From Nakamurella antarctica (GTDB lineage: Bacteria > Actinomycetota > Actinomycetes > Mycobacteriales > Nakamurellaceae), in the NCBI RefSeq assembly GCF_003860405.1, contig NZ_CP034170.1, forward strand, positions 2,852,001 through 2,916,000: DNA of 64,000 bases. Direction: 5' to 3'. Of this stretch, positions 16,794-29,314 are shown piece after piece. Below the pieces are notes generated by a model. It was given only the letters and a program-made list of their open reading frames with translations. It was not told the origin of the DNA and did no database searches. Every line of letters starts with the position of its first letter. Positions within the stretch are counted from its first letter, which is position 1. Both the position numbers and the translations under genes were made by a program.

Positions 16794-17837
16794 TCACTGA
16801 AGCGTCAGGTCTGCCCGGCTGGAAGTGAGCGAGCCGATCCGAACCTCAGCTTTGTACGCCCCCGCCGGCACTCGGAGTCGGTCCGTCGCGCAGCCCGGAG
16901 ACGACGTGGTTCCAGACCAACGGATGTTGTACTGCAACGTTTCGCCGGGCTTGAGGAATCGCACGTCAGTGCCGGTTCCGGGCAGACAGTCGGAGGTCGA
17001 AAACAGGCGGGCGTCGGCTGCGTCGTAGATCAGGTATTCCTGCAGGCTGCCGGAAACGTCACGCACGCAGGCCTTGTCGCCCACATTCTTGACCGTCACG
17101 CCGAGAATTGGCTGCTCACCCACCTTGTAAGTAGGTGAACCCACTGTCGCGCTCAATTGCACGGACGCATCTGGGCAGTTCAGTCGGCCCTGCGCGTCGT
17201 AGGTGAGCGCAGCAGCAGCGGCGGCATCAGCGGCGGCCTTCGCGGCAGCATCGGTCGCAGCCTGCGCAGCAGCTGCATCAGCGGCCGCTTTCGCGGCAGC
17301 GTCGGTCGCAGCCTGCGCAGCAGCTGCATCAGCGGCCGCTTTCGCGGCAGCGTCCGTCGCGGCCTGCGCAGCGGCAGCGTCGGTCGCAGCCTGCGCGGCG
17401 GCAGCATCCGTCGCGGCCTGCGCGGCCGCAGCATCGGTCGTGGCCTGCGCGGCGGCAGCATCGGTCGCGGCCTGCGCGGCGGCAGCATCGGGCGCAGCCG
17501 AATCAATGGGTGCACCCGTGGACGCAGCCGCGGCAGCGGCTTCTGCCTCCGCTGCTGCTGATGCGGCGGCGGAAGGGTCGTCGGTGGGGGGCGTGGAGGT
17601 CGCCAGTTCGGGGAACAAATCACCCGTCATGGCCGCCGAATTCGAGGCCGAGGGTGCGCGGGCGGCAGTACTTCCCGAAGTGCCGACCACCTCCAGCTCA
17701 TTCGCTGCTGTCGATGTATTTCCGCCGCGGCTTGTCACCACCCACACGGCCGCGATCAATACGACCACCCCAAGGCCCAAAAGCCCTGCTCGGCGCGCCC
17801 AATACACTTTCGGGGACAGAGGTCCGACTGGCTGCAT
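16794..17837 (-). CDS. Ala-rich repeat membrane protein (Rv3587c-like)
   Basis: A 347-residue protein with one N-terminal membrane anchor (AGLLGLGVVVLIAAVWVV), a long low-complexity segment and a C-terminal beta domain of about 125 residues (from NCPDASVQLSATVGSPTYKVGEQPILGVTVKN) with four cysteines likely forming disulfides outside the cell. The middle carries tandem 9-residue units of the type AAAAQAATD alternating with AAAKAAADA. ATG 17837 has CAGGGTG before it; the frame open to 18023 overlaps the divergent mutY promoter. In M. tuberculosis Rv3587c lies next to canB and mutY, which matches this location without canB. The function is unknown. Confidence 0.8.
   Translation of the reverse strand: MQPVGPLSPKVYWARRAGLLGLGVVVLIAAVWVVTSRGGNTSTAANELEVVGTSGSTAARAPSASNSAAMTGDLFPELATSTPPTDDPSAAASAAAEAEAAAAAASTGAPIDSAAPDAAAAQAATDAAAAQATTDAAAAQAATDAAAAQAATDAAAAQAATDAAAKAAADAAAAQAATDAAAKAAADAAAAQAATDAAAKAAADAAAAAALTYDAQGRLNCPDASVQLSATVGSPTYKVGEQPILGVTVKNVGDKACVRDVSGSLQEYLIYDAADARLFSTSDCLPGTGTDVRFLKPGETLQYNIRWSGTTSSPGCATDRLRVPAGAYKAEVRIGSLTSSRADLTLQ
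17208..17500. repeat. In-frame Ala-coding tandem repeat
   Basis: About ten imperfect 27-bp units rich in GCGGCCTGCGC and GCAGCATCGGTC lie head to tail inside the Rv3587c-like gene and encode AAAAQAATD/AAAKAAADA. Units stay in frame, so copy number can vary without breaking the protein. Confidence 0.8.
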
Positions 17838-22277: not shown

Positions 22278-22541
22278 GTGCACTCCTCGGGGCGCAGTGG
22301 CGTGCAATTAATGGCGTTAGCTTGACCCGTCGCATCCCACAGGCTGATTGCCCGCCGTACGCCGGATACCTTCACTGTAATCGGTGCTCCCGACGGCCAC
22401 AGTTCGCTGCGCGCAGCTATCTGCTGACACACACTCCGCATTGACCGTGAAAAATCACCGCACAAAACGGGAATCACGCCGTGTTCCCCGTCTTCCTTCT
22501 TCAACGCTCCCCCACCAGCAGACGTTCCGCCAGTCTGACGG

Positions 22542-22559
22542 CTACGCCGAGGGCGAAAA
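22542..22559. promoter_or_regulatory. Possible ClgR-binding site between clpC and aroF
   Basis: GCTACGCCGAGGGCGAAA is close to the corynebacterial ClgR consensus as I recall it (CGCYNANRGCG core, with A/T bases outside). The core CGCCGAGGGCG at 22546-22556 matches fully. ClgR activates clp genes in actinobacteria. The distance to clpC is long (about 265 bases) and no clear clpC promoter was found, so this is tentative. Confidence 0.35.
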
Positions 22560-22581
22560 GTAGCCTCACCGAACCAGCGAC

Positions 22582-22611
22582 TTGACCGGTATGCCACCAC
22601 AAACCTACTGT
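22582..22611 (+). promoter_or_regulatory. Promoter of the DAHP synthase attenuator transcript
   Basis: TTGACC at 22582-22587 and TACTGT at 22606-22611 are separated by 18 bases and fit a housekeeping-sigma promoter with the actinobacterial TANNNT -10 pattern. The predicted transcription start falls at about 22618-22619, on or beside the GTG at 22619 that opens the leader peptide. Translation would then be leaderless. Confidence 0.6.
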
Positions 22612-22618
22612 GACGGAC

Positions 22619-22675
22619 GTGAACATCATGTGGCAGTCGTATTTTAGGTTGGCTCTGGAGGAGCCAACGCGCTAA
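22619..22675 (+). CDS. Leader peptide of an aromatic-amino-acid attenuator
   Basis: An 18-codon ORF from GTG 22619, or 15 codons from ATG 22628, encoding MWQSYFRLALEEPTR in the shorter form. Trp, Tyr and Phe codons all lie within five residues, which is very unlikely by chance directly ahead of the first enzyme of aromatic synthesis. A promoter places the transcript start at or next to the GTG, so it can be read without a ribosome binding site. A stem (GTTGGCTC 22648-22655 with GAGCCAAC 22661-22668) overlaps codons just after the aromatic run, and a terminator follows at 22706. Corynebacterium glutamicum aroF also has a leader (aroR) of this kind; similarity is in design. Confidence 0.75.
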   Translation: MNIMWQSYFRLALEEPTR

Positions 22676-22701
22676 TCGCTGACCGCGTAATTCCCAGAGC
22701 C
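22648..22701 (+). promoter_or_regulatory. Alternative leader RNA stems (attenuator switch)
   Basis: Two mutually exclusive pairings share one segment. GTTGGCTC (22648-22655) pairs with GAGCCAAC (22661-22668), while the overlapping GGCTCTGG (22651-22658) pairs with CCAGAGCC (22694-22701). A ribosome stalled on the aromatic codons at 22631-22645 would cover the shared arm. How this reaches the terminator arm at 22706 was not resolved by eye. Confidence 0.5.
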
Positions 22702-22705
22702 CCCA

Positions 22706-22739
22706 GGCACAGACTCACCGTCTGTGCCTTTTGCCTTTT
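22706..22739 (+). terminator. Rho-independent terminator (attenuator) before aroF
   Basis: GGCACAGAC (22706-22714) and GTCTGTGCC (22720-22728) form a perfect 9-bp stem with loop TCACC, followed by TTTTGCCTTTT. It lies between the leader peptide and the DAHP synthase gene on the same transcript, so it must be conditional. This is the expected place for an attenuator. Confidence 0.8.
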
Positions 22740-22804
22740 CAGGCGGCCCTGGATGCATCCGGAGCCGCTGGACCCCACACCAGACCGGACAAAGGAAGCG
22801 CCCT

Positions 22805-24001
22805 ATGAACACCGCCAGCAAGAATGCCGCTCACCCCGCCGCCGCCCTGTGGGCCACCCCCCAGTCCGACCCCGTGCCCAATCCGCACAGCACCACGGAT
22901 CTGCAGGTCAAAAGCTTTGACGTATTGCCAACCCCCGCCGCCATTCGGTCCGAGTTCCCGCTCGGACCTGTGCGCGCGGCGGTCGTCTCCTCCACCCGCG
23001 AAGCGATCCGTGGCATCTTGGCGGGAACGGACGACCGCCTGCTGATAGTCATTGGCCCGTGTTCGGTCCACGACGTGGACGCGGCGTTGGATTACGCCCG
23101 CGCCCTCGCAAGCGAGGCTCGCCTGCATGCCGAAGAGCTCCTCATCGTCATGCGCGTCTACTTTGAGAAACCGCGCACCACCGTCGGGTGGAAAGGGTTA
23201 ATCAATGATCCCGGCCTCGATGGCTCCTACGACGTACAGCGCGGGTTGCGCACCGCTCGCCAGCTCTTGCTCGACATCCTTGACCTGGGAATCGGTGTGG
23301 CGTGCGAGTTTCTTGAGCCCATCAGCCCGCAATACATTGCGGACGCAGTTAGCTGGGGCGCGATCGGCGCCCGCACCACAGAAAGCCCAGTGCATCGCCA
23401 GCTCGCCTCCGGCCTGTCGATGCCGGTGGGATTCAAGAACGGCACCGACGGTGACGTCCAAATCGCCATCGATGCGATGATCGCCGCGGGCGCCGGTCAG
23501 GCCTTCTTCGGCGTCGACGACAACGGTCGCGCTGCCGTCGTGTCGACCCGCGGAAATCCGGATACGCACGTTATTACCCGCGGTGGCCGAGGGGGGCCGA
23601 ACTACTCAGCCGACCACACGCGGGCAATTTGCGCCCGCCTGACGAAAGCGGGGCTGCCGGCGCGGGTCGTCGTGGACGCCAGCCATGCCAACAGCGGCAA
23701 AGACCATATCCGGCAAGCGGTGGTCGCTGGCGAACTCGCAGCTCAAGTTGCCTCTGGCGAAGCGATCGCGGGCATCATGCTGGAAAGCTTCCTCGTAGCC
23801 GGACGACAAAACCTACCGATAGATGTAGTGGGCGGCGCCCCGCAAGGGTCGTTCGATGTTGCCGAACTCGTGTACGGCCAAAGCGTCACCGATGCGTGCA
23901 TGGGGTGGGAATGTGCCCTCGAAGTTCTCGGCGAATTCGCTCAAGCGGTCACCTCTCGGCGCCGCAGCGATAAATCCGCTCGCGTGCTGTTCCAGAACTA
24001 A
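22805..24001 (+). CDS. aroF: 3-deoxy-7-phosphoheptulonate (DAHP) synthase, class I AroF/AroG type
   Basis: A 398-residue enzyme that condenses phosphoenolpyruvate and erythrose 4-phosphate, the entry step of the shikimate pathway. Active-site blocks are LLIVIGPCSVHDVDAALDYA, VYFEKPRTTVGWKGLINDP, WGAIGARTTESPVHRQLASG, FKNGTDGDVQIAIDA, VVDASHANSGKDH, and the closing GQSVTDACMGWE. ATG 22805 is preceded by GGAAGCG; the longer frame to 22724 crosses the terminator hairpin. Synthesis is probably controlled by the leader peptide and terminator upstream. Many Mycobacteriales rely on a type II enzyme, so this class I enzyme with its attenuator resembles the corynebacterial arrangement. Confidence 0.95.
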   Translation: MNTASKNAAHPAAALWATPQSDPVPNPHSTTDLQVKSFDVLPTPAAIRSEFPLGPVRAAVVSSTREAIRGILAGTDDRLLIVIGPCSVHDVDAALDYARALASEARLHAEELLIVMRVYFEKPRTTVGWKGLINDPGLDGSYDVQRGLRTARQLLLDILDLGIGVACEFLEPISPQYIADAVSWGAIGARTTESPVHRQLASGLSMPVGFKNGTDGDVQIAIDAMIAAGAGQAFFGVDDNGRAAVVSTRGNPDTHVITRGGRGGPNYSADHTRAICARLTKAGLPARVVVDASHANSGKDHIRQAVVAGELAAQVASGEAIAGIMLESFLVAGRQNLPIDVVGGAPQGSFDVAELVYGQSVTDACMGWECALEVLGEFAQAVTSRRRSDKSARVLFQN

Positions 24002-27526: not shown

Positions 27527-29314
27527 TCAGTCTTCGGAGTCGTCGTAGCGGCGGCGGCGGCGGCCACGCACCTCCGCGGTAGCACTGCGGTAGGAAGCAA
27601 GGAGTTCGGCAACGGATAAGCCGGTGCTGTGATCACCCAGTGGTTCCGCTTCTGCGGCTTGGGGTTCTGCGGCTTGGGGTTCTGCCTGAGCAACTTCAGA
27701 GCGTGCGATATCCAGCGGGCCGTTCTCATTTTCGTCTTCAGCGGCGCTTGCCTCGGGAGCGGCCTCTTCCGCCGCAGCAAACGCGGCAGCCCCTGGAAGC
27801 TCCCAGCTTCCGGTAGTGCGGGTACTTGTATCCGCGGGCTTTCCCGCCACGACAGGCTCGGTAGTGGTCGAAGGTTGATTCGGAAGCGAGTCTCTGTCGG
27901 GCATTGCCGGCGGCCGGGGACCTGCGAGGACGCTCGAAAAGTTAAAGCCCCCCAGCGCAGACGGCCGACGTCGATCGACCATGTTGTGTGACCACTGCAC
28001 AGCATCAATCTGCACAGCATCAATCTGCACAGCATCAGGCTGCACAGCATCAATCTGCACAGCATCAACCTGCACATCATCAACCGGCACATCATCAACC
28101 GGCACAGCATCAACCTGCACAGCGTCAGCGTGCACATCATCTGGCGCGGCGTGGTGGTGCGGTGCCTCGTGGAGGACGTTCGGCGCACCCCAGGAAGATG
28201 TGAGACCCGGCGCACCAGCGTCCGTGGTCGGCCACCGATGAGAACTGGGCTCGGGGCCAGCTTCCTGGGGGTGAAGGCTTTCCTCCATTGACGTTTCTGT
28301 ATCCCGCGCCTGTGCGGGAAGGGACTCAGAGTCAGGCTGTGCTTGGTGGTCGCTCGCCGAAACGTCGACTTCTAGCAGTGGTTCTTCGGCTGCGTCTTGA
28401 CCACCGTTGAGCGGCAGGGGTTCGCTGACAGGGTCAGAAACGCCCAGCTCAGCAGCATCATGCGCGTGGATTACATCGGGAGAAGTTGACTCACGGTCCT
28501 CTCCTTCAGTTGCAGACGGCGCGAACGAGTCCAGCTCATCCGCCTCAGTGGTCCCAGTTACGTACCGATCCGCGGCGTGACTGTCGACAACATCGCTGCC
28601 GTCGACCTCCGATTCAGCAGCACCCGATTCAGCCCCGTCAAGTTCGGCATCACCAAGTTCGACATGATCAAATTCAGCATCACCAAGTTCAACATCACCA
28701 AGTTCGACATCATCAAATTCGGCATCCATGATGTCCGAGTCGTCAGCATCGGGATACCCGGCACCCGATTCGGATATGCCGTAACCGGTGTTATTCGCTC
28801 GGGCCGGTCCGTACATGGGTGAAAGCTCGCCGCGTCCCCCGTCTGATCCGACGGCGCGGACCCGGGTGGATTCGGCCGACAGGGTGAGCCTCTCGAACAA
28901 GAGGTTGCCATCAAAGAGTTTCGAGACCGTTTCGTTGAGTCGTTGCACCTGATCACGCAGCTCACGCAGCTCGACCTGGTGGGCGGTTTCGAATTCGCCG
29001 CGTAACTCATCGCTCATGCGTCGCTCGTGTTCGCGGCGGGCGTTAATCTCACGCTGGAGCTCTAGGTCGTAGGTCAGTTTGGCCTCGTCGCGCTTATTCT
29101 CTGCAAGCCGGGTCTCACGGCGGGCTCGCACTGTGGCGAAACCGCCGATAGCAAACGCCCATAGCGCAAGGACGAGGGCCAGGCGCAAAATCGGCGGTGT
29201 GTCAGAAAGCACCCCGACCACCGCGGCCACCGCGGCCAGAACAATGCTGATTCCCACGAGCCACTTCAAGACGTCGGTGGCGCCTTTACGTCTGCCGCCG
29301 TCTGATGCACTCAT
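27527..29314 (-). CDS. DUF6779-type membrane protein with acidic repeats (Rv3604c-like)
   Basis: A 595-residue protein. Residues 1-70 hold two membrane helices (LKWLVGISIVLAAVAAVVGVL and LRLALVLALWAFAIGGFATV). A coiled coil follows (about 75-150, from RRETRLAENKRDEAKLTYDLELQ). The remainder is a long, strongly acidic low-complexity tail with pentad repeats (DVELG/DAELD type and AVQID type) that ends in a conserved-looking LSVAELLASYRSATAEVRGRRRRRYDD. Location beside DUF3180 and folK matches M. tuberculosis Rv3604c. ATG 29314 is chosen because it precedes the first helix; no strong ribosome binding site is visible. The function is unknown. The domain order suggests an anchored cytoplasmic scaffold. 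Confidence 0.85.
   Translation of the reverse strand: MSASDGGRRKGATDVLKWLVGISIVLAAVAAVVGVLSDTPPILRLALVLALWAFAIGGFATVRARRETRLAENKRDEAKLTYDLELQREINARREHERRMSDELRGEFETAHQVELRELRDQVQRLNETVSKLFDGNLLFERLTLSAESTRVRAVGSDGGRGELSPMYGPARANNTGYGISESGAGYPDADDSDIMDAEFDDVELGDVELGDAEFDHVELGDAELDGAESGAAESEVDGSDVVDSHAADRYVTGTTEADELDSFAPSATEGEDRESTSPDVIHAHDAAELGVSDPVSEPLPLNGGQDAAEEPLLEVDVSASDHQAQPDSESLPAQARDTETSMEESLHPQEAGPEPSSHRWPTTDAGAPGLTSSWGAPNVLHEAPHHHAAPDDVHADAVQVDAVPVDDVPVDDVQVDAVQIDAVQPDAVQIDAVQIDAVQWSHNMVDRRRPSALGGFNFSSVLAGPRPPAMPDRDSLPNQPSTTTEPVVAGKPADTSTRTTGSWELPGAAAFAAAEEAAPEASAAEDENENGPLDIARSEVAQAEPQAAEPQAAEAEPLGDHSTGLSVAELLASYRSATAEVRGRRRRRYDDSED
27995..28130. repeat. 15-bp tandem repeats encoding AVQID-type pentads
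   Basis: Nine or so copies of a 15-bp unit of the form GCATCAATCTGCACA (plus strand) encode (A/D)VQ(I/V/P)DA on the minus strand, inside the acidic tail of the DUF6779 gene. Units remain in frame. Confidence 0.8.
28625..28735. repeat. 15-bp tandem repeats encoding DVELG-type pentads
   Basis: A second, unrelated set of 15-bp units (CAAGTTCGACATCAT-like, plus strand) encodes DxELG or DAEFD pentads in the same protein. Two separate expansions in one tail suggest that slippage is tolerated there. Confidence 0.75.

Follow-up and report, generated by a model that had tools for sequence, protein, structure and literature searches.

The type I DAHP synthase gene aroF in the window, by which we mean the whole 64,000-nucleotide stretch of Nakamurella antarctica DNA analyzed here, is preceded by a short leader that, judged by sequence comparison, belongs to a large family of actinobacterial leaders (Table 1). 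We lean toward the view that this leader is a ribosome-mediated regulator of aroF, in which a ribosome stalled on aromatic codons would allow segment B to pair with segment D, and the B:D helix would act both on the terminator and, by a relay of further pairings, on translation of aroF. Across the family, comparison supports the predicted leader ORF, its leaderless start, its codons, and the putative pairings B:D, D:F, F:F' and F':SD, where SD is the aroF Shine-Dalgarno sequence.

The leader locus and its relatives

Direct reading of the DNA confirms the layout that an earlier note had described, with a -35/-10 pair, its spacing, and an ORF from GTG 22619 carrying Trp, Tyr and Phe codons. The ORF encodes V N I M W Q S Y F R L A L E E P T R followed by a stop, with TGG at 22631, TAT at 22640 and TTT at 22643. 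GTG 22619 lies 7 bases past the -10 element, the spacing seen in relatives, and places Trp at codon 5 (compare MTNRW... in relatives); another GTG, at 22610, overlaps the -10 element. A simple sigma-70 scan does not list the leader promoter, because TACTGT matches TATAAT at only three of six positions; relatives show the form TANNNT. The terminator proposed ahead of aroF is present as a hairpin with a T-rich tail, and has 10 pairs (22705-22729) rather than the 9 claimed. It is one of four terminator-like sites on the two strands of 22400-22860, where shuffled sequences give 0.4, and the stretch 22619-22804 folds with a stability z of -3.3. The genome also encodes a class II DAHP synthase (G000:C1:1393928-1395208) and has no second copy of the leader above noise (next match E 0.74); in the same genus, the type I enzyme is matched in just 3 of 17 genomes, including this one. 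A T-box or other described riboswitch would suit a location upstream of an amino-acid gene, and is scarcely credible given that Rfam has no family here: nothing comes near threshold in 22300-23100, where two sub-threshold sRNA matches have E values of 4.7 and 6, and nothing reaches the gathering threshold in four relatives. No NCBIfam model matches the five leader peptides tried. Elsewhere in the window, a 680-aa ORF on the minus strand contains a 15-base tandem repeat of 9.8 copies (27995-28141; VDAVQ/IDAVQ-type repeats) and a second, 15/45-base array (28639-28726), and GC-rich tandem repeats of 27/51 bases lie at 17215-17499.

Table 1. Features of the aroF leader locus, in window coordinates; RNA segments and pairings are predictions.
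Feature	Position	Strand	Basis or remark
Promoter-like pair TTGACC (22582-22587) and TACTGT (22606-22611), spacer 18	22582..22611	+	read directly
Putative leaderless leader ORF, GTG start, VNIMWQSYFRLALEEPTR, stop TAA	22619..22675	+	homologous to MTNRWYAYFSLALEEPAR and others
Segment A, sensor codons TGG CAG TCG TAT TTT (W Q S Y F)	22631..22645	+	conserved aromatic cluster; rare synonyms TAT/TTT
Local hairpin B:C, GTTGGCTC...GAGCCAAC, within the ORF	22648..22668	+	ribosome-free fold prediction
Segment B, GGCTCTGG	22651..22658	+	pairs with D; B:D covaries in the family
Segment C', at and past the stop codon	22674..22688	+	fold; partner of A (22628-22643) in free RNA
Segment D, CCAGAGCC, switch strand	22694..22701	+	exact complement of B; F is its second partner in the family
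Terminator-like hairpin E:E', AGGCACAGAC-TCACC-GTCTGTGCCT	22705..22729	+	terminator scan; present in every modeled ribosome state
T-rich tail TTTGCCTTTT	22730..22739	+	TTYGYCRTT-like tail in relatives
Segment F (AGGCGGCCCTGGA), alternative partner of D	22741..22753	+	one mismatch in 8-base core; weak in window, significant in family
Segment F', pairs with F (GGCGGC:GCCGCT) and weakly with the SD flank (TCCGG:CCGGA)	22757..22769	+	weak in window, significant in family
CCGGA flank (22785-22789) and Shine-Dalgarno-like AAAGGAAG (22791-22798)	22785..22798	+	direct reading; start-codon scan
aroF, type I DAHP synthase, 398 aa, ATG 22805	22805..24001	+	PF00793 (E 5.1e-82), TIGR00034

A scan of named genomes gave 80 loci with AroF, and short ORFs with an aromatic cluster were sought upstream of 36 of them (the first 31 and five further actinobacterial loci; several were read by eye). 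A leader was found at 25 of the 30 named actinobacterial loci, for example MTKRWYAYFPLALEEPAR, MSAVNRWYWRYEPAPGGAGGHVR and VNIGVRAYWRFIVAPGGASDAASG; one of these (L009) has a longer ORF that our leader finder missed, and was recognized by eye only. At the other five (L007, L010, L018, L026 and L067) the ORF scan found no leader ahead of the enzyme. A covariance model built from 19 leaders and starting at the sensor codons matched 9 of 396 genomes of the phylum at E < 1e-14, in all nine cases directly upstream of type I DAHP synthase. Four weaker matches in the phylum (E 1.4e-4 to 0.005) resemble noise, and no leaderless aromatic ORF was found at L123-L126 and L149, in the same E range. The model also matched 31 of 249 genomes of the order (E up to 0.01), 61 of 394 of the class (E up to 1e-4), 61 of 149 in the family of genome G024 (E up to 1e-4; two look like chance), 17 of 24 in the family of G931 (E up to 1e-4), and 10 of 101 in the genus of G625 (E up to 0.1), which we take to be Corynebacterium from its FYF peptides. 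L244 (E 3.4e-5) and L245 (E 1e-5) were considered as leaders and set aside as apparent chance matches. Our leader checks took up part of the matches from the G024 family and passed over L202-L204, L206 and G624.

In the phylum sample, the leader is found in all 13 genomes that belong to the window's order or class and carry the enzyme, a count that includes three of YFWF type (G066, G251 and G294) as well as G220. Within the order, the leader at L117 is identical to that of Mycobacterium colombiense (L008) over the 120 bases compared. The other classes of the phylum have a leaderless aromatic ORF of another type at 3 of 37 places scanned out of 44 (two with short upstream sequence). Three loci of another class (L106, L109 and L110) have leaderless, F/Y-rich ORFs (FYERFYYRS, FHERFYYRF) ahead of type I DAHP synthase that are perhaps an independent attenuator. 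At three Burkholderia-type loci (L027, L029 and L032), the same enzyme is preceded, about 90-330 bases ahead of the gene match, by an ORF reading MSAKFYFYFF(W/A)YL... and a hairpin with a T tract, which may be the proteobacterial equivalent. The comparisons below use 36 representatives (< 78% over 140 nt) drawn from the 120 leaders in which the hairpin could be located; these 120 include two identical pairs. Outside the 120 stand L009, L242 (no hairpin found), and seven loci of Rhodococcus/Nocardia/Antrihabitans/Amycolatopsis type (L025, L030, L031, L035, L036, L063 and L073; YFWF or YWF) that keep the hairpin and have no T tract.

That the leader ORF is leaderless, as the earlier note had suggested, gains support from a conserved spacing between the -10 element and the start codon. 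All 36 representatives have TANNNT 6 to 8 bases before an in-frame ATG or GTG, where shuffled sequences would give 0.38, and the spacing is 7 bases in 27, 6 in 8 and 8 in one. The same arrangement is found in 104 of 104 model matches with a type I DAHP synthase (DAHPS-I) downstream, in 21 of 21 in one further family, and in 18 of 20 matches lacking DAHPS-I downstream, the remaining two of which look like chance. The covariance model does not select for the start because it begins at the sensor codons, and none of the 104 DAHPS-I matches was lost for want of the TANNNT that the leader finder requires. A -35-like hexamer (at least four of six positions) precedes 33 of 120 leaders, against 11.8 expected. 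The leader mRNA seems to start on the start codon itself, as predicted from the -10 spacing, and if it does so at GTG 22619, a ribosome would load at the 5' end with no need of a Shine-Dalgarno sequence. Because homologues elsewhere share its place, its -10 spacing, its codons and its stems, the window leader goes beyond chance.

Sensor codons and the genes that follow

Single Trp, Tyr and Phe codons, which the earlier note had proposed as the sensor, are conserved in the family: Tyr is present in 36 representatives, Phe in 35, Trp in 31, and all three in 30. The five leaders without Trp are L152 (RRYPYF), L207 (RRSRYF), L224, and L200 and L205, both from the genus of G625. Among the closest relatives, where loss of these codons would have counted against the proposal, both same-genus genomes with the enzyme keep all three (RWFTYF and RWYAFF), and no loss was seen. 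The 36 leaders use TAT 47 times and TAC never for Tyr, and TTT 39 times and TTC 6 times for Phe; the DAHP synthase genes themselves (partial, from representatives with a located start) use TAC 171 times and TAT twice, and TTC 231 times and TTT 5 times.

The codon content of the leader follows the downstream gene. At 17 loci, mostly in large genomes (L212-L214, L217-L223, L225-L227 and L229-L232; Pfam was run on one fusion and two mutases), the leader stands before the gene for a chorismate mutase, either alone or fused to a DAHP synthase, and these leaders have Phe, often Tyr, and never Trp; their T tracts are often longer. The products of these enzymes lead to Phe and Tyr and not to Trp. Ahead of tyrS, assigned by TIGR00234, the leader has one Tyr codon (VLTRRVYPNGSGV..., VLMRRVYPN...; L216, L284, L286, L287 and L288, of which L216 and L288 are the same place). 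In all four genomes of one genus (G931 and G1211-G1213) there are two copies, the aroF copy with Tyr, Trp and Phe codons and the tyrS copy with a single TAT. We are highly confident that this is a codon-sensing leader.

The terminator hairpin, the B:D helix and the relay

The earlier note had envisaged mutually exclusive terminator and antiterminator stems, as in a classical trp-type attenuator, in which the stall would produce an antiterminator incompatible with the terminator hairpin. In keeping with this scheme, the locus has a leader ORF with sensor codons, alternative pairings and a terminator-like hairpin, but our modeling and comparisons argue against the exclusion itself. Whichever aromatic codon the ribosome occupies in the model, and also when it sits at the stop, E:E' has a probability close to 1 for 44 of the 46 leaders (for the other two, L148 and L021, the script had picked an odd hairpin), and in the window too E:E' forms in every modeled state, with and without a stalled ribosome. 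Its loss costs 17.4 kcal/mol in the window, and a median of 17.1 and minimum of 5.5 across 36 leaders. We also compared pairing between segments of the same species with pairing to other species' segments in the 36 representatives, where about 3.6 would fall in the best tenth under the null. With C denoting the local partner of B, and P the whole region past the terminator, the counts are 35 for E:E', 14 for B:D, 13 for D:P and 10 for A:C'. The pairings C':E, B:E, A:E, A:E', B:E', C':E', B:P, E:P, C':P and A:P give 1 to 6, at the level of the null, and D:E, D:E', the T tract and the whole upstream RNA give 0 to 5, so that no upstream segment pairs with either terminator arm or the tail beyond the cross-species control and no competitor of the terminator emerges. 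Folds truncated after E, so that E' is still absent, likewise give no sign that a stall keeps E paired with upstream RNA: in 44 leaders the mean paired fraction of E is 0.15 with the first codon stalled, 0.25 with the last, 0.40 with the ribosome at the stop, and 0.43 in free RNA. Thus, of the features of a trpL-type leader, the sensor-codon ORF and the terminator-like hairpin are found and the terminator-excluding stem is not; the textbook part of the attenuation proposal is not supported, and we consider a classical attenuator improbable. Alternative pairings do exist, as the note had claimed, but none competes with the terminator, and in relatives the device runs past it to the aroF Shine-Dalgarno sequence.

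A modeled hairpin that is insensitive to ribosome position would also be expected of a constitutive partial terminator or insulator, with the ORF incidental or otherwise used. The conserved leaderless start, the codon choice, and the codons matched to the downstream gene are hard to explain without codon-dependent regulation, and make this alternative very unlikely.

The pairing of B with D is our candidate for the starved state, and we think it likely that B:D plays this role. Own-species pairing of B with D exceeds other-species pairing at a mean z of -1.35, and in 37 aligned leaders (alignment A4, comprising 35 of the 38 sequences of one list and two others) both sides have changed in 5 of 14 B:D pairs, as they have in 7 of 9 E:E' pairs and 4 of 6 F:F' pairs. 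In folds with a ribosome stalled on the first aromatic codon, the predicted B:D helix directly abuts E (gap of 0 bases) in 25 of 36 representatives, and a single base separates the two in 6 more; the predicted gap in the window is 0. A pair near this flush end covaries (UA in 27 and CG in 5 of 37). In the genus of G625, B:D and E:E' are flush in 4 of 5 folds by eye and in 3 of 8 by script.

We propose that a shortage of Trp-, Tyr- or Phe-tRNA would cause the ribosome to pause on TGG, TAT or TTT, where it would hold segment A off C' and leave B free to pair with D, in a helix that would end flush against E:E'. When amino acids are plentiful, the ribosome would instead reach the stop codon and cover the stretch from B to C', leaving D free. 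Segment D would thereby serve as the switch strand, engaged in B:D under starvation and in D:F in fed cells, with F situated past the terminator. Across the family, D:F would free F' to cover the aroF Shine-Dalgarno sequence in fed cells, and B:D would let F pair with F' under starvation, so that the Shine-Dalgarno sequence opens. A single stall would probably have two effects: the flush helix would act on the terminator, and the relay B|D|F|F'|SD on translation of aroF. Here we infer the stalling, the direction of the response, and any effect on termination.

The downstream arm of this model draws on several comparisons. These used 28 of the 36 representatives, eight that have no start codon 50-100 nt downstream being left out. 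Against dinucleotide shuffles, the three adjacent pairings of the relay are all stronger than expected: D:F with a mean z of -1.85 (t -7.8, n 28), F:F' with -1.19 (t -5.3, n 26), and F':SD with -0.95 (t -3.3, n 26). The non-adjacent controls F:SD (z -0.25) and F-region:B (z -0.30) are not significant. Contiguous helices scoring at least 6 are found in 17, 19 and 16 of the 28 representatives for D:F, F:F' and F':SD, with 6.4, 6.5 and 4.9 expected, and in 52, 60 and 46 of all 83 loci, with 16.2, 22.1 and 13.6 expected. D:F pairs in 86% of alignment cells, and in 21-58% when slid. On A4, 18 of 500 shuffles reach the covariation score of D:F and 12 of 500 its number of cells changed on both sides, with no gain over shuffles in the number of covarying pairs or of pair types (490 and 498 of 500). 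In one group of loci, the F':SD pairing changes in step by eye (GTCCCG:CGGGAC, GTTCCCG:CGGGAAC, GATCCCG:CGGGATC).

In modeled folds, a stalled ribosome lowers the cost of opening the Shine-Dalgarno sequence by a mean of 2.17 kcal/mol relative to a ribosome at the stop codon (cheaper in 22 of 28, dearer in 4). Shuffling the inter-region brings this mean effect to -0.11, and in 23 of 28 leaders the real value is above the shuffled mean for that leader (paired t 5.1). Coupling is strongest at the seven loci without a T tract, where the effect is 6.2 versus 1.0 (t 4.1). Leaders ahead of other genes show an effect of 0.47 versus -0.24 that is not significant (t 1.3; 15 of 18, three with an unclear start omitted). 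The effect in the window itself, 1.6 kcal/mol, is no larger than the 1.3 obtained with a shuffled inter-region; its F':SD pairing has 5 pairs and lies beside rather than over the Shine-Dalgarno sequence, and its D:F duplex (-15.1 kcal/mol, one mismatch) has a z of about -1.0 to -1.2. We judge it on balance credible that the Shine-Dalgarno relay is a real output in the family, and somewhat doubtful that it is one in this window.

An account confined to transcription is possible, though not the one we prefer: the flush B:D helix would bar the terminator hairpin from the polymerase exit channel under starvation, and the downstream pairings would merely shape the read-through mRNA. The near-zero gap between B:D and E in most representatives and in the window, and the covarying pair at the flush end, would fit such a mechanism. 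The genus of G625 likewise has flush helices yet no clear relay, with no clear D:F at L148, L201 or L205. Flushness would also be expected, however, from stacking of D:F on E:E', and the seven loci that have the hairpin but no T tract retain the coupling to the Shine-Dalgarno sequence. We also know of no published case of antitermination by abutment, which counts against this account. It is consistent with control of C. glutamicum aroF at transcription, as reported in the available part of a review (PMC11802643). In the dual-output model that we prefer, a flush B:D helix acting as a steric antiterminator is a possible component.

Relation to described leaders and significance

The known relative of the window leader is aroR of Corynebacterium glutamicum. 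The aroR-aroF attenuator is reportedly the subject of work by Neshat et al. in 2014. Like the window leader, aroR encodes a short leader peptide with aromatic residues and precedes a DAHP synthase gene, and the leaders in the genus of G625 carry FYF, several with Trp, together with the same B, D and E segments. The earlier note's precedent of similar design in Corynebacterium is a real one, as far as the accessible text of three papers goes (PMC11802643, PMC4046766, PMC3890552). In that text the aroR peptide has Phe-Tyr-Phe, whereas the window leader has Trp, Tyr and Phe, and aroR is presented as a transcription attenuator that responds to Phe and not to Tyr: the review reports that Phe limitation raises aroF transcription and that Tyr availability has no effect (PMC11802643). 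This report favors an effect on transcription in C. glutamicum, and cautions against taking every aromatic codon of a leader peptide for a sensor.

With attenuators of the trpL type, including actinobacterial trp leaders as described in the available portions of two papers (PMC1262725, PMC8079986), the aroF leader shares sensor codons in a leader ORF, a stalled ribosome that would free a segment for downstream pairing, and a terminator-like hairpin. It differs from the descriptions there in using single codons of three amino acids, written as rare synonyms, in lacking a terminator-excluding stem, and in having a switch strand that finds an alternative partner downstream of the terminator. In translational attenuators of the ermC type, a stall rearranges a chain of alternative stems and uncovers a Shine-Dalgarno sequence. 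Folding models suggest a comparable stall-driven opening through alternative stems for the aroF leader family, but not beyond shuffled sequence in the window itself; the family departs from the ermC type in sensing amino-acid codons rather than a drug, in its longer chain, and in the terminator-like hairpin nested within it. The ilvB and ilvB-II attenuators of Corynebacterium and mycobacteria likewise combine an actinobacterial uORF, sensor codons and a terminator, according to the accessible text of two reports (PMC10272879, PMC13236596). Terminator and antiterminator are described there as alternatives, while no such exclusion was found in the aroF leader.

According to its available text, a 2005 survey of leaders in actinobacteria saw no conserved RNA structure ahead of Phe/Tyr operons. 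In the corresponding portion of a reannotation of S. lividans, leaderless leaders are given for leu, trp, ilv, met and thr, together with an alaS leader and with nothing aromatic beyond trp. The accessible sections of three further papers (PMC4833913, PMC12125101, PMC4974804) hold nothing on a leader of the window type, and the peptide motifs RWYAYF, MWQSYF and others are absent from the literature searched.

We tentatively suggest, as a reading we would not yet bet on, that these leaders form a widespread class of actinobacterial attenuators, with an always-folded terminator disabled by abutment, a Shine-Dalgarno relay that jumps over it, and a leaderless, rare-synonym ORF re-coded for each aromatic gene (aroF, DAHP synthase-chorismate mutase, chorismate mutase or tyrS). 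If our model is correct, many actinobacteria would have, at the entry step of the industrially interesting shikimate pathway, a compact sensor of the whole aromatic amino-acid family, and the leader would be an attenuator whose terminator and antiterminator are not alternatives. The leader is also a case of rare synonymous codons chosen almost without exception, and its aroF and tyrS copies in one genome offer a clean natural experiment in the matching of codons to genes.
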